Positions 17,406 through 54,395 of a DNA stretch of 64,000 nt are shown here, piece by piece. The stretch is from contig JAJNBJ010000015.1 in the NCBI GenBank assembly GCA_021155965.1, positions 1 through 64,000 of the forward strand. The letters run 5' to 3'. The DNA comes from Flavipsychrobacter sp. (GTDB lineage: Bacteria > Bacteroidota > Bacteroidia > Chitinophagales > Chitinophagaceae). Each line of letters begins with the position of its first letter. Within the stretch, counting starts at the first letter, position 1. A program made the translations under genes and the position numbers. A model generated the notes under the pieces. It made no database searches. It saw only the letters and a list, made by a program, of their open reading frames with translations, and was not told the DNA's origin.

Positions 17406-17537
17406 ATGAAAGCAATTATATTGATCCTGTTAACCCTGCTATTTGTGCAAAATGCCTTTACTCAGTATGACAACCGGTTACCTGCACAAAAGATAAAAGG
17501 GAGAATAAAGTCTGTAAAAGAGTATGTTGTAATCTTC
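17406..17537 (+). pseudogene. 5' remnant of a secreted protein gene cut off by a repeat
   Basis: ATG 17406 opens a good signal peptide (ILILLTLLFVQNAFTQ) followed by about 25 residues of the type QKIKGRIKSVKEYVV. This resembles the mature N-terminus of secreted Bacteroidota proteins with 'KGKVKSVTE' openings. After about codon 44 the composition changes and the frame runs into the GGTAC hairpin repeat, closing at 17810 with no recognisable domain. I read the first 44 codons as a genuine gene start and the remainder of the frame as repeat-derived sequence. The exact breakpoint is approximate. Confidence 0.5.
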
Positions 17538-17683
17538 AATAGGTATGCAATGCTACCCTTTTCTGCAATGGGATTCAATGTAACAAACCCAGTGTTCCGT
17601 GTTATCAGTGTGATCTTTAAATCCGTGATTCTTGCAATAACCCCAAAACCGCTAAAATCCGCGCCAATACTGCAAACAAAAAA

Positions 17684-17736
17684 CCATGACGGTACTGAAA
17701 CTGTACCGTCACGGTACCGAAATGGTACCGTCATGG
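17684..17736 (+). repeat. 53-nt GGTAC inverted repeat, copy 1
   Basis: The outer arms CCATGACGGTAC and GTACCGTCATGG are perfect inverted repeats. The interior holds a second palindrome GTACCGT-C-ACGGTAC. The same-length element recurs at 53414-53466 with a matched change in both arms. Confidence 0.85.
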
Positions 17737-17934
17737 TTTTTAAATTTGGCACGAACAACAGCATTAATGAACTTTACTCAACTCCAAAAAAATTGGGGCA
17801 AGTTCTTTGAATGACTGGCAACTTACATTTATGACTTATGACTTATTTATCTGCCTTAGCACAACATGACTTACAACTTAAAAATATACCCAAAAGGGCG
17901 TTTTTTAGTCATTTTACCCCGTCTCTTAGTCGCT

Positions 17935-18047
17935 TTTATACCCTTTTAGACATGAACACAAAACACATAACACCCGCCCATAGCGCATTTCACCTGCATC
18001 CGCAAAAAATTATTAACCGCAAACGGGCTATTTTCAAAATTATACCC
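17935..18047 (+). repeat. TATACCC-bounded dispersed repeat, copy 2 (subfamily B)
   Basis: Starts TTATACCC, continues through AACACAAAACACATAA, AGCGCATTTCA and ATTAACCGCAAA, and ends AAATTATACCC. It is preceded at 17831-17879 by degenerate ATGACTTA heptamers. It shares the internal ATTAACCGCAAA block with copy 4 (54263-54395) but not with copies 1 and 3. Confidence 0.75.
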
Positions 18048-18104
18048 TTCACCCGGCGAGGATATCGGTTTGGTATCTTTGGGAAGGTCAAAATTTATAG
18101 TGAC

Positions 18105-18443
18105 ATGGTAACGATAGAAGAATTCAGGTCATGGGCGTTGGCATTTCCTGATGCCGAGGAACTGCCGCATTTTAATATTCCTTCATTCAGGTACAAAAAG
18201 AAAGTGTTTGCTACCTATTGGGAGAAGGATAACAGGGCCATGCTGAAGCTTCCGCTTACAGACCAGGATGTATTCTGCTCTTATAAAGAAGGTATATTCT
18301 TTCCTGTAGACGGATTTTGGGGTAAGCAAGGGGCTACTTTCGTGGAGCTGAAGAAAGTGAGAAAGGATATGTTTAAAGATGCACTAGCGCTGGCGTATAA
18401 TGGAGTAGCACTGAACGGTAAAAAACAGAAGAAACAAAAGTGA
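18105..18443 (+). CDS. MmcQ/YjbR family protein
   Basis: A small cytoplasmic protein of the MmcQ/YjbR fold (a double-wing-like DNA-binding fold of uncertain function). The motif FRSWALAFPDAEELPHFNIPSFR near the N-terminus and a central LKLPLTDQD are characteristic. ATG 18105 is chosen because everything upstream in frame is repeat sequence. That gives 112 aa, the normal size. A short Lys/Gln-rich tail ends the protein. It stops one base before the convergent outer-membrane gene. Confidence 0.8.
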   Translation: MVTIEEFRSWALAFPDAEELPHFNIPSFRYKKKVFATYWEKDNRAMLKLPLTDQDVFCSYKEGIFFPVDGFWGKQGATFVELKKVRKDMFKDALALAYNGVALNGKKQKKQK

Positions 18444-21050
18444 TCAATTTAACAGTTTATTAAAACGGATGTTCACATAGTTGCCGTCGGCGGAAGTGCC
18501 GTATGTGATTGTAAAAGTGAGCTTGTTAAATGGCGCTAACAATATGCCGCCTCCATATGCATAGTGCCACATATCAGACTGCTCGCCGTTGAGCCAAACA
18601 CGGCCATCGTCTATATATGCCACCAGGCCGCCTTTCCCATTCATCAGGTACGAACGTATGTCTGTGATATACCGTAACTCATTGGAGTTGTAAAGGGCAG
18701 TATTGCCCCAGAACCTGTCACGTTTATACCCCCTGAAATTCTGGTTGCCGCCTATGGAGGCATATTGATAGAACTCAGGCTTGCCCAAAACGGAATTGAC
18801 GCCTGCACGCGTAGACAGGCTGAATTTGCCAAAGAGCGGCAGATAGACCTGCGCAATAGCATTGATGCCAGTAAAATCCCTTGGCAGTTCAATATTGCGG
18901 TTGTAGCTTATGCCGCCATACAGCATAACGCCCTTGGTAGGTATAGCGAGGTCGTCCATATTTTGGTACGTGTAACCCGCACTAATACCCACGAATTTCT
19001 GTACGCCCAGGAGTTCCGGATGGCCTGTCAGGTAGTTGTCGCTGATGAAGGTAGGCGATGCATTGATGAGTTGTATAGCGCGCGCATATGCTTGCAGGGA
19101 AATGTAGTGGTGTGCAATGTTCCGGTTCATGCTTAGCTTACCCATAAACTCTTTTGTCTGCAGCTTGTTGTAGTTGTTGTTGGTAGCAGGGAAGAGGGTC
19201 TCATTGCCAAGGCCGTAAAAGTTTGTAGAGCGGAAGGCATCGTAACTCGCAGATATACCTAGGTCCCATTTGCCGATGAATTTATATAAGGTGGCATCGT
19301 ATAGCAGGCTCCATGAGTTTTCGGTAATGGAATAGCGCAGGTATATTGCCTGCTGCGAGCCGTAGGGGTCTTTTCTCCATGCATGGTGCGCAAAGCCATA
19401 GCCTATGCTGGCGAAAAGTTTATCGGGGTTGTTGTAGGAAAGTAACGGGCGTATGCCTTTACGGGGGTACTCGAATTCTTTGTAGTTATAGGAGTTGTTA
19501 GCGCTGTCGGCTGCAAGATGCAGCCGGGCTTCGGAAGCGGTTGAAAAATTATTGGCGTTATCGTCGTAGATGTTTGTGCGCTTCTTCCATCCGGCTACAT
19601 GGGATTTGTCGATTATAGTGTCAGGATCAACACCGCCAATAATGCGCACATTTATGCCTTTATACACGTTGCCTGTAACACGGAATTTATCGTTACCGGC
19701 TATTCCGTAAAGGCGTATGTCTTTTGTTTCGTTGGTTTTAAACACACGGTCGTATATAGGAGTTTCGTTTGTTTTACCGCGCTCGTCTATTTTGTATATA
19801 CTCACCCGGGTCTCTTTGCTGCTAATGCGCTCTACATCGAAATACTCCCTGCCTTCTGTGCCGGGTATATCTACGTGCCGGGCAATGAATGTGTAGTAGC
19901 GGGAGGCAAAGTCGCGCAGATGGTCTCTGCGTGAGCGAAGCCGGGCCACCAGGTCGTCTCCTGAGATGGCATACACTTCCGGAGGTAACTGGCCGACAGC
20001 CCTTTGTATTACTTCATTTGTCAGGCTTGCCTCCATTTGGGCGGCTATACTCAGCCAATCCTGTAAGGTCAGCTTGTTGGTGCACTGGCGGTCAAGATGG
20101 CGTGCCGTGTAGCCATAGATCTTGATACCTTTTATATCGTGGTCGAATGAACGCAGGTAATCGAGATTAGCGGCATGAATAAATAATATAGGGAACACCC
20201 CGCCGAAATGGGAATAGGCATGGTCGCGGTCACGCGGAATTGGCTTGTATATCTTTTTACCATTTTCCTCGAATACCCCCCAGCGCCATTGGTCTTCGTG
20301 CCGCCCCCAATCGCCTATGAGCATATCGAACAGGCGTGAGCGTGCGTATAAATGCTGGTCAACGAGGTTGTCATTGCTTTTTAGCAACTTTTCCAGCAAT
20401 TTATCTGTGCCTATAATATTCCTGGCGTTCCCAAAGTTTCCGGCAGTTTCCCAATTTTCATCCGGGCGCTGCTCGAGCATGTAGAGATAATTGCCAAAGC
20501 GTGCATTGAAGGTGTCTAATGCATCCTGTTGCGGAACGTATACCATTTTGGGCGTGGTATGCAGTATGCCTGCTGCATCAGCCATCGCCGCTATTGTAAG
20601 TGCTGCATATGGATGGTCGAAAGTTACCTGGTCATTAATTGCACTTTCTATAAAAGTATTCCGGGCAATCTCGGGTAGCGCTCTGCCGAACGATTTATCC
20701 ACGCTACGCAGCACGTATTCCCGCTTTGCAGTGTCGCGAAGGCGCAACGATTTGCTCTGCCTGCCGCCGCCGCTTTGGTAAGGTGTCAGGCCACCATAAA
20801 TGGTATCCAGGCTTATAATTGGCGCCCATAAGGGCGTTGCCCATTCCTTCCGGTAGTTTTTGCCGAAGAGCGTATTGTGTAATGCTGAACGCTGGTAATC
20901 ACCCGCTATTATCAAAACTTTGCCAGGTACGCTGCTGTCTTTAACTATCGTTTTAGGTTGGGCAAATATAGTGCCTGGCAAAAGCATTGAGCAAATACCG
21001 GCTATTATACTGAAGCAGTATTGTAAACAGTTTTGTGGTCTTTTGCTCAT
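18444..21050 (-). CDS. Outer-membrane beta-barrel protein with CotH/FAM20-like kinase region
   Basis: A signal peptide starting at Met 21050 (SIIAGICSMLLPGTIFAQ) precedes two main regions. The N-terminal half (about residues 80-300) has the layout of secretory CotH/FAM20-like kinases: YVLRSVDKSFG, then FDMLIGDWGRHEDQWRW, then YKPIPRDRDHAYS. The C-terminal half is a BamA/TamA-type surface-antigen barrel, ending GILLAPFNKLTFTITYGTS. In related Bacteroidota proteins a metallophosphoesterase often precedes this middle region; it is absent here. Kinase activity is inference from motif order. An in-frame ATG at 21092 would add 14 non-signal-like residues. Confidence 0.7.
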   Translation of the reverse strand: MSKRPQNCLQYCFSIIAGICSMLLPGTIFAQPKTIVKDSSVPGKVLIIAGDYQRSALHNTLFGKNYRKEWATPLWAPIISLDTIYGGLTPYQSGGGRQSKSLRLRDTAKREYVLRSVDKSFGRALPEIARNTFIESAINDQVTFDHPYAALTIAAMADAAGILHTTPKMVYVPQQDALDTFNARFGNYLYMLEQRPDENWETAGNFGNARNIIGTDKLLEKLLKSNDNLVDQHLYARSRLFDMLIGDWGRHEDQWRWGVFEENGKKIYKPIPRDRDHAYSHFGGVFPILFIHAANLDYLRSFDHDIKGIKIYGYTARHLDRQCTNKLTLQDWLSIAAQMEASLTNEVIQRAVGQLPPEVYAISGDDLVARLRSRRDHLRDFASRYYTFIARHVDIPGTEGREYFDVERISSKETRVSIYKIDERGKTNETPIYDRVFKTNETKDIRLYGIAGNDKFRVTGNVYKGINVRIIGGVDPDTIIDKSHVAGWKKRTNIYDDNANNFSTASEARLHLAADSANNSYNYKEFEYPRKGIRPLLSYNNPDKLFASIGYGFAHHAWRKDPYGSQQAIYLRYSITENSWSLLYDATLYKFIGKWDLGISASYDAFRSTNFYGLGNETLFPATNNNYNKLQTKEFMGKLSMNRNIAHHYISLQAYARAIQLINASPTFISDNYLTGHPELLGVQKFVGISAGYTYQNMDDLAIPTKGVMLYGGISYNRNIELPRDFTGINAIAQVYLPLFGKFSLSTRAGVNSVLGKPEFYQYASIGGNQNFRGYKRDRFWGNTALYNSNELRYITDIRSYLMNGKGGLVAYIDDGRVWLNGEQSDMWHYAYGGGILLAPFNKLTFTITYGTSADGNYVNIRFNKLLN

Positions 21051-28664: not shown

Positions 28665-28748
28665 ATAATTGTCTGCCCGAGGTTACGCAGTTATCCACAT
28701 CTTTAGTACACTCCAAAAAAACTTTACTGTTTTTTAGTTTTTACTTTA

Positions 28749-28756
28749 TACTTTTG
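28749..28756 (+). promoter_or_regulatory. -7 box TACTTTTG of the B12 operon
   Basis: A TAnnTTTG match placed so that transcription would start within a few bases of the riboswitch. A lone TTATCCACA lies at 28691 and is not taken as an origin signal. Confidence 0.55.
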
Positions 28757-28761
28757 TCCTG

Positions 28762-28940
28762 CAAAGGTTCCCGACCTCGGTTGGGATGAAAAGGGAACCA
28801 GGTGAGAATCCTGGACATTACCCGATGCTGTTAGCTCCATAAAAAAGCTTTTTGCTACCTCTGCCACTGTTTCGATACAAGAGACGGGAAGGCCGCAAAA
28901 AGTGGAGTAAGTCAGAAGACCTGCCTCTGCTAGTTACTTA
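28762..28940 (+). promoter_or_regulatory. Cobalamin (B12) riboswitch
   Basis: The aptamer core is readable in order. GGTTCCC/GGGAACC forms a stem, then comes CAGGTGAGAATCCTGGACA, then GCCACTGT with GACGGGAAGG, and the B12-box-like AGTAAGTCAGAAGACCTGCC. Downstream, GCAG/CTGC followed by ATTTTT (about 28979-28998) could be the expression-platform terminator. It controls the four following surface and transport genes, which should be switched off when B12 is plentiful. Confidence 0.93.
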
Positions 28941-29060
28941 TCGCTGCTTTCGGGACCAAAAGCACAGGTGAGATAAACGCAGGGTTATCTGCATTTTTCT
29001 GTATCTGTTTAATTACCCAATTGCTGCATAATACAAGTTGTTTTTAAAACCAATTTATAT

Positions 29061-53212: not shown

Positions 53213-53413
53213 AAAAGAGCATATACCTTTCCGCCGTTGCAGGTCTTATTTTCTGACCTGCAACCTCACGCCGGGCACAATCTTCACTGATATACGCTCC
53301 TCAAAAATAAATACATAGACACGTATTCCCCCTTCAAAAAACACCCCCGGTTTTTGCGCCCTCAGATCCTGCAAATCCGCACTCACGCTGCAATGCGCCA
53401 CGTAAAATATTTT

Positions 53414-53466
53414 CCTTGACGGTACTGAAACAGTACCTTGACGGTACAGAAATAGTACCGTCAAGG
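53414..53466 (+). repeat. 53-nt GGTAC inverted repeat, copy 2
   Basis: The outer arms CCTTGACGGTAC and GTACCGTCAAGG are perfect inverted repeats. The same length and interior plan as 17684-17736 hold, with an A/T swap that changes both arms together. It lies 112 bases upstream of the helix-turn-helix gene and is followed by TTTTTAATTTTTT. Confidence 0.85.
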
Positions 53467-53577
53467 ATTTTTAATTTTTTCAACATAAAGACACGTAGGA
53501 ACTTTGTGCTGTTTAAACCCCCTTCGCCCGCCATAGCTATTTCAGCGACGGTGGGGACAAACTAAAAAAATACAACC

Positions 53578-54078
53578 ATGGAAAACGAAAAACGAACACA
53601 GGCCCGCAACCTCTACCTCCAGTCCGATCTCACGCAAGCACAGATTGCCCAACTCACTGGCGTATCCCAGAAAACCATATCCCAATACATCAGCGACAAC
53701 AAATGGGATCTCATTAAAGAAAGGGCAAAACAAATACCCGCATTGTTTTTAGAGCAGATGAACAGCGAGATCGAAGAGATCAATCAGGAAATTGCATCAA
53801 GGCCAATAGGTAAACGGTATCCCACATCGCGCGAAGCTGAGGTCCGCCGCAAGATAATCTGCTCAATGGATGCCATTAAAGAAAGGCAATCCGTCGGCAC
53901 GCACATTCAGGCCATTATCAATTTCATCGCGCACGTAGCCGAAGAAAGCCCTGAGCATGCTCACCTCATCACAGACTATGCCGACAAATACTTCACCGGG
54001 GAATTACACAAGCACGGTTCCCCCTTCCGCAACAAATACAACCTCCCCGGCGCCCCGGAAGAAACAATAAAAACATAA
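53578..54078 (+). CDS. Orphan helix-turn-helix protein (phage terminase small-subunit-like)
   Basis: 166 aa. The N-terminus is a clear helix-turn-helix: QARNLYLQSDLTQAQIAQL, then TGVSQKTISQYISDNKWD (residues 7-43), of the kind found at the start of gpP/PBSX-type terminase small subunits. The remainder is helical and charged (EIEEINQEIASRP; RKIICSMDAIKERQS). No large terminase, portal, capsid or integrase gene is near, so a packaging role is unlikely. It is surrounded by the GGTAC inverted repeat (upstream) and the heptamer and TATACCC repeats (downstream), which it may bind. That role is inference. Confidence 0.7.
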   Translation: MENEKRTQARNLYLQSDLTQAQIAQLTGVSQKTISQYISDNKWDLIKERAKQIPALFLEQMNSEIEEINQEIASRPIGKRYPTSREAEVRRKIICSMDAIKERQSVGTHIQAIINFIAHVAEESPEHAHLITDYADKYFTGELHKHGSPFRNKYNLPGAPEETIKT

Positions 54079-54232
54079 CTCAAAATTGACAACTTATGAC
54101 CTATGACTTATCCAATTTGACATCAAAATTTGGCATAACGAAACACTTTGGCGAACTTAAAACACTATATGGAAACTGCGTCTTTGCAGCCTGGTCCCGC
54201 CTTGGCGGTGGCCTCTGCGTGAAAGTGTCTGA

Positions 54233-54395
54233 CTTATGACTTACGACTTATGACTTACGACTTTTTATACCCTTTTATACCCGTTTATACCCCTTTATAC
54301 ATGATAACAAAAAACATAAATATGACGCACAGCGCATTTCAGGTAGCACAGCAAAAAAATATTAACCGCAAATCATTTATTCAAATTTATACCCC
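54233..54395 (+). repeat. GACTTAY heptamer array plus TATACCC-bounded repeat, copy 4 (subfamily B)
   Basis: Tandem seven-base units GACTTAT/GACTTAC (about 54230-54264) run into four TATACCC units. The element continues through ACAAAAAACATAAA, CAGCGCATTTCAGG and ATTAACCGCAAA, ending AATTTATACCCC. The gap 54079-54232 also holds two scattered GACTTAT units and otherwise looks like decayed, gene-free sequence. From 54396 to 54587 I see no gene. Confidence 0.75.

Follow-up and report, generated by a model that had tools for sequence, protein, structure and literature searches.

What kind of unit does a solitary helix-turn-helix (HTH) gene belong to when it is enclosed by repeats, and how does it relate to a second set of the same repeats that lacks the gene? 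The question arises in the window, the 64-kb stretch of Flavipsychrobacter sp. DNA analysed here, where two arrays with the same order of parts lie, as originally described, at 53.4-54.4 kb (gene-bearing) and 17.7-18.05 kb (gene-less). The original prediction interpreted them as an autonomous unit and its internally deleted derivative, with the HTH protein as the possible recognition factor. The genome to which the window belongs is labelled G000 in the following, and other G numbers denote the relatives compared with it.

Structure of the two arrays

The inverted repeat that opens each array (Table 1) consists, in the gene-bearing copy, of two 17-bp GGTAC...GTACC palindromes with a spacing of 22 bp, inside matching TTGAC/GTCAA flanks. 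The neighbours of the HTH gene are a methyltransferase-side gene pair and a carbonic anhydrase-like gene (names assigned by eye), with no terminase among them. On the upstream side of the gene-less unit, a small ORF (17406-17810), the putative truncated secreted-protein gene, reads into the repeat. The GACTTAY heptamers, predicted to be parts of the unit, are present in both arrays; they are, however, generic repeats (54231-54263 in the gene-bearing array) with matches in many other genomes of the genus. Two further repeats of the window match many genus genomes, namely an inverted repeat with TTGCAGGTC...GACCTGCAA (53228-53281) and a CCCGCC...GGTGG repeat (53521-53555), and a cobalamin riboswitch is found on the plus strand at 28748-28942.

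Table 1. Coordinates of the parts of the gene-bearing and gene-less units in the 64-kb window.
Feature	Position	Strand	Remark
Left arm, gene-bearing unit	53374..53413	+	divergent version of AATCCGCCCAAACCCGCGCCCACAGC...TATTTT; recurs upstream of many hairpin copies (by eye)
53-nt double GGTAC palindrome (hairpin)	53414..53466	+	CCTTGAC...GTCAAGG
-7-like promoter box GAACTTTG	53499..53506	+	39 nt past palindrome
HTH gene, 166-aa protein, phrog_4151 / small-terminase-like	53578..54078	+	sequence match; model predicted all-helical
GACTTAY heptamers	54231..54258	+	one more at 54105
TATACCC element, gene-bearing unit	about 54264..54394	+	3' end of composite unit; terminates in TTTATACCC
Left arm, gene-less unit	17650..17683	+	by eye
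Double GGTAC palindrome, gene-less unit	17684..17736	+	
GAACTTT box, gene-less unit	17769..17775	+	39 nt past palindrome
GACTTA heptamers, gene-less unit	17831..17879	+	
TATACCC element, gene-less unit	17935..18047	+	

Palindromes, promoter-like boxes and TATACCC elements across the genome

The hairpin, first recognised as a two-copy feature, is real yet far commoner, being present in at least 75 separate places in G000. Matches to GGTAC-N7-GTACC number 110 per strand, compared with 7 when the pattern is reversed as a control, and a stricter form of the palindrome pattern yields 102 sites against 0 in the control. High-copy extragenic doublets are present, part of the copies are single palindromes rather than doublets, A and T runs flank many hairpins, and several palindromes sit a few hundred bases or less from contig ends. 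The HTH gene is present at six of the at least 75 places.

Of 91 stretches defined by their palindromes or TATACCC elements, 60 made up the detailed sample. They contained 57 palindromes, among which L073:6443 appears to be a chance occurrence. A -7-like box, which we take to be a promoter element from the Bacteroidota consensus, follows 56 of the 57. Its spacing from the palindrome is exactly 39 nt in 42 of these 56; in five cases it lies at 61-62 nt, which fits one extra 22-bp repeat, and in nine at other distances (26-51 and 90 nt). A palindrome held at constant spacing just upstream of a promoter-like box occupies an activator-like position, as in phage late promoters.

Hairpin and TATACCC element form a single unit, as had been proposed: the element is found within 150-850 bp downstream of 23 of the 57 palindromes and in the same relative orientation in all 23. 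Three of these composites enclose the gene (740-850 bp from palindrome to TATACCC), and the other 20 hold no intact gene (150-388 bp). Of the 33 TATACCC elements in the fetched stretches, eight come from stretches selected by the element itself, and one more beyond the 23 sits on what appears to be the upstream side of the L091 unit, whose orientation is ambiguous.

The nearest downstream gene is co-oriented in 34 of the 46 oriented units (p = 0.0016) and, leaving out HTH-bearing units, in 29 of 41 (p = 0.012), a count that omits nine of the 57 palindromes as not clearly oriented or lying within an ORF. Such a bias, together with the constant spacing upstream of a promoter-like box, would suit a host regulon in which HTH transcription factors act on a common operator-promoter placed before many genes, the dispersed copies being genuine regulated promoters. 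Conservation nevertheless extends beyond the operator, the separate 3' element keeps a fixed orientation in 23 units in the manner of a repeat, and the motif is absent from two same-genus genomes searched. The gene at 18.1 kb, moreover, has a promoter-like box of its own beyond the gene-less unit (by eye). A host regulon is on balance an unlikely explanation.

The HTH protein: family, selection and recognition

Six homologues of the HTH protein are encoded in G000, identified alike by tblastn and by profile search, with identities of 22-100%. Scanning genome_contigs with a single protein brought up no relative. The GGTAC palindrome lies upstream of all six, and the TATACCC element accompanies three of them and is missing from the other three. 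Homologues elsewhere lie without the GGTAC repeat.

All seven proteins scanned, the most distant paralogue included, have matches to phrog_4151, a phage family of DNA-binding proteins (154 aa), that span almost the whole family length. The phrog_4151 match has E 2e-20, and a match to PF06056 scored 23.8 bits against a cut-off of 20.3. These two matches, with the annotations of phage relatives given below, place the protein in the family of phage small terminases or DNA-binding proteins at the sequence level. The predicted model of the 166-aa protein is all-helical (mean pLDDT 89). A Foldseek search of the PDB with this model returned no significant match, the small terminase 4xvn appearing at rank 44 (E = 6), and a sequence search of solved structures gave nothing informative beyond an HTH. 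No catalytic motif was seen in the protein.

Six chosen within-genome sets of three to seven copies each have dN/dS values of 0.02-0.06 in the first 150 residues (dS 0.4-1.0) and 0.15-0.52 in the looser tails, so that the DNA-binding half is under strong purifying selection in these sets. The 15-base windows over the palindrome region of G207 were 85-100% identical. Low dN/dS and conserved palindrome windows point to old copies kept as proteins, with the site largely kept as well, and argue against decaying junk.

The proposal that the HTH protein is the sole recognition factor is not supported. By eye, the recognition helices of the six G000 homologues differ, with one palindrome in common, and the homologues in G171 (51-52% identity) have no GGTAC palindrome; the palindrome thus follows the genome and not the neighbouring protein. 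The idea of a regulator bound solely to its own palindrome was set aside, since one palindrome serves several recognition helices.

Gene-less forms, boundaries and possible movement

Among the 20 gene-less composites, the one at L073 (minus strand) is a direct internal deletion of the HTH-gene-bearing form: its promoter, its ATG and roughly 18 codons of a homologue are retained and are followed by the TATACCC part. The predicted pairing of an intact unit with an internally deleted derivative is in this sense partly right, and both gene-bearing (3) and gene-less (20) forms exist; the 17.7-kb copy for which it was put forward, however, is at most a candidate deletion product. Apart from L073, a comparison of the fetched stretches, that copy included, with three HTH proteins found no matches beyond the six genes.

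The right ends of the units are mostly sharp, at TTATACC with C or T as the next base. The 23 units gave no sign of a target-site duplication: the longest shared string averaged 5.70, compared with 5.44 for shuffled pairs (maximum of the shuffles 5.87), in a test weakened by the fuzzy left boundary and by one mis-picked right end (L094). In agreement with the original prediction, no transposase was found within the unit, nor was any integrase-sized ORF in its 0.3-1 kb. Gene matches in the nearest genomes have about 64-78% identity, and no empty site in a close strain emerged; in G223, a relative of the downstream gene has a different upstream sequence (by eye), which is no demonstration of an empty site.

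Movement in trans by a Y1 (HUH) transposase, with the HTH gene as a passenger, would make the hairpin a REPIN/RAYT-like or IS200-mobilised miniature element. The palindromes are indeed high-copy, extragenic, inverted and hairpin-forming, they are nearly confined to G000 among the genomes searched, and no target-site duplication was seen. Three Y1_Tnp matches are present in G000, one of them (L344; G000:C34:83-337) about 370 bp from a palindrome copy. That frame, however, has an internal stop and lies at a contig end, and another match is a short fragment. The remaining frame, of 172 aa (L346; G000:C28:70401), lies more than 1.5 kb from any GGTAC hairpin. Behind it stand two copies of another palindrome, TTCCAGATATATATCTGGAA, with which it may form a REP-like pair of its own. 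No linked Y1 RAYT gene for the GGTAC units was found among the three matches. The linkage of all six HTH genes to the palindrome also speaks against a passenger, and the fixed box spacing and the purifying selection on the HTH protein would be left unexplained. This explanation is considered improbable.

Distribution and upstream motifs in relatives

The HTH family was found by profile search (E <= 0.001) in 34 of 35 genus genomes, in up to 15 copies; the single window sequence as query detected it in 21 of 195 family (Chitinophagaceae) genomes. A separate search for GGTAC sites gave none in the two same-genus genomes that it covered and 1-4, scattered and at about control level, in 52 of 194 other family genomes, so that the repeat is not widespread in other genomes, in line with the original prediction. 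For many homologues elsewhere, a different palindrome occupies this position; a further group instead shows a TATCCACA-type box, presumably similar to the DnaA box consensus, and some have neither.

An upstream survey with set patterns covered 62 HTH loci from ten genomes, of which one was dropped for too little sequence. Among the remaining 61, either a TATGAYA/TRTCATA core or a GGTAC palindrome was present at 31, a TATCCACA-type box (counted on either strand, two of them weak) at 20, neither motif at 10 and both at none. The box is seen at loci L233, L237, L240-L242, L245-L247, L252-L253, L259, L224, L161-L162, L169-L170 and L175-L176. A CATATGC-type repeat was recognised by eye at four of the 10 motif-less loci (L163-L166, G097) and at the weak-box locus L167; the inverted-repeat scores of the five G097 copies (5-7) are no higher than those of shuffled sequences (mean 6.7, 95th percentile 9).

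Five copies in G097 and seven in G207 have the unit in common and differ in their flanks, a further left-side repeat being shared by three of the five G097 copies and most of those in G207. The TATGATAT form of the palindrome occurs at 13 sites in G207, 16 in G216, four in G226, two in G203 and one in each of four others, and at none in G000 and the remaining 26 genomes (control: one in G207 and one in G215). Eleven of the 13 palindromes of G207 lie 65-66 bp from an HTH gene among the 13 of 15 matches listed, three of the four in G226 lie about 96-97 bp from one, and both in G203 adjoin one. None of the 16 in G216 is on the seven contigs of the HTH matches listed there (of 10 matches). The same palindrome sequence is found in G203 and G226; overall, the palindrome differs between most species compared and is not strictly private to a species. 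Closely similar proteins of G203 (mean dN 0.035) lie behind either the palindrome or the TATCCACA box.

Connection with Mu-like phages

The paralogue on contig C41 of G000 (L006) lies directly upstream of genes for a large terminase, a Mu gp36-like adaptor and a Mu-type portal, with capsid and tail-sheath genes on its other side; the window gene, in contrast, is not beside a large terminase. A hankyphage-like head and tail cluster was located at G000:C41:78000-97900 (L189), in which the small terminase gene has the GGTAC palindrome and a topoisomerase IB gene and a repressor-like gene are nearby.

The window protein matches 36 of 50,697 phage records, all below 60% identity. Among the 20 of these 36 that were listed, the annotated ones are terminase small subunit (SSU) or DNA binding protein, and a large terminase subunit adjoins the match in nearly all, including Bacteroides phage p00 and likewise a Porphyromonas phage. 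Phage p00, known as the hankyphage (PMC12135933), has MuA- and MuB-like genes. Hankyphage packaging is reported to start at the left end of the phage and not beside terS (PMC12135933), which counts against the palindrome as a packaging start and weakens that candidate role.

Searches for the large terminase confirmed 173 of 358 pattern matches in many Bacteroidota and 352 of 508 in viral contigs, 80 being kept in each case. Of the phage-cluster regions inspected in viral contigs and in other bacteria, a minority have comparable palindromes by eye (e.g. L271, L363, L369 and L264); most of the regions examined have no clear palindrome of the GGTAC-unit kind, and an exact-match search of IMG/VR for the double GGTAC motif returned 0. 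A palindrome in G211 precedes a gene resembling (by eye) the one divergent from terS in the phage cluster. Near a similar phage cluster, L191 (G116) encodes a reverse transcriptase (phrog_1423) at 17644-18606, which recalls the diversity-generating element of the hankyphage.

Discussion

The reading that we favour, with a probability of roughly 0.4, is that the units are phage-derived cassettes of a late promoter and a terS-like gene, which encode no recombinase for their spread and from which the gene is often lost. With members of about 0.3-1 kb, they are best filed as a phage-derived promoter/terS-like family with putative mobility. This reading draws on the position of all six G000 homologues behind the palindrome and the 39-nt spacing in 42 of 56 units, and on the phrog_4151 matches of seven out of seven proteins, the place of L006 beside a large terminase and the phage TerS annotations. 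It is further supported by the palindromes in a minority of phage clusters and before a phage-cluster-like gene in G211, by the differing flanks of the G097 and G207 copies and the proximity of 11 of 13 G207 palindromes to HTH genes, and by the low dN/dS (0.02-0.06), the 85-100% identical G207 windows and the deletion derivative L073. Against it stand the lack of a significant Foldseek match, the null result in IMG/VR, the left-end packaging reported for the hankyphage, the absence of a clear palindrome from most phage clusters examined, the G097 repeats at shuffle level and the 16 G216 palindromes away from the HTH contigs, as do the presence of the gene at only six of at least 75 places in G000 and the occurrence of one palindrome in both G203 and G226. 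Strict pairing of protein and site is contradicted by the differing helices of G000 and by the G203 proteins, similar to each other behind either a palindrome or a TATCCACA box.

In its full form, a phage-derived cassette would consist of a short left arm, a palindromic site, a promoter, the small-terminase-like HTH gene and a 3' repeat, its likely source being the terminase/head region of hankyphage-type Mu-like prophages. In each genome, a resident trans-acting factor would bind the palindrome; this may be a phage activator of late genes or else the TerS-like proteins. Since one G000 palindrome goes with different helices, and similar G203 proteins lie behind two kinds of upstream sequence, the binder is probably a factor common to the genome; a resident phage late regulator is the leading candidate and the TerS-like proteins come second. 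The cassettes may be switched on together with prophage late genes, and their TerS-like products may join or interfere with packaging, by analogy with the terS of phage satellites. Gene-less units would arise through internal deletion or partial copying. Movement without a cassette recombinase could proceed by capsid transport and recombination between repeat copies, or through a host enzyme.

A mobile-element class without transposase or integrase, in which a terS-like gene and a palindromic site are packaged by resident Mu-like prophages and recombine into repeat copies as landing pads, is a doubtful proposition, made less probable, like the favoured reading, by the left-end packaging of the hankyphage and the palindrome common to G203 and G226. 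Very unlikely are ordinary intergenic mosaic repeats, bidirectional terminator-like hairpins flanking solitary prophage-derived genes by chance: the generic heptamer and other repeats do abound in the genus, and A and T runs stand beside many hairpins, but hairpins before six of six HTH genes in G000, HTH genes next to 11 of 13 G207 palindromes and a single orientation in 23 of 23 composites are far from chance.

Nearly every genus genome searched has the HTH family, with up to 15 copies of a protein of the phage packaging type. If palindrome and protein act with resident prophages, phage-derived cassettes would amount to minimal phage piracy or phage interference; if the units act as dispersed promoters, host genes would have come under a phage circuit that was spread before them. 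In both cases, the spread of a palindrome with a non-enzyme-looking protein becomes directly testable. Among the papers listed by literature searches, none concerns palindrome/terS-like cassettes of this kind.

Comparison with known systems

The closest protein comparison is with the small terminase of p00 and related Mu-like phages, to which the window protein belongs by family over most of its length at 26-31% identity; the C41 paralogue has a similar gene neighbourhood, whereas the HTH gene of the window stands by itself after a dispersed repeat and has neither head genes nor a large terminase gene around it. REPINs, which go with RAYT transposases, are dispersed extragenic double palindromes that are genome-specific and tied to a dedicated gene family (PMC3116915), and the GGTAC units resemble them in being dispersed, extragenic, double-palindromic, genome-specific and gene-family-linked. 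They differ in that the linked protein is an HTH protein in which no catalytic motif was seen, and not a tyrosine transposase, and in two further parts, the promoter-like box at its fixed distance and the distinct element at the 3' end.

The likeness to phage satellites lies in a TerS-like gene found outside the helper phage and beside a candidate recognition site. Satellites of the SaPI/PICI type carry their own terS. In contrast to these, the present units are about 1 kb long and multi-copy, and have no integrase, replication or capsid-size genes. In the MITEs of insertion sequences, gene-less derivatives share both ends with gene-bearing copies, and the gene-less units likewise share both ends with the gene-bearing ones; here, however, the gene-bearing copy has no transposase, and the weak test gave no target-site duplication signal. 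The similar arrangements with other motifs in related species suggest a little-studied family of virus-derived cassettes.
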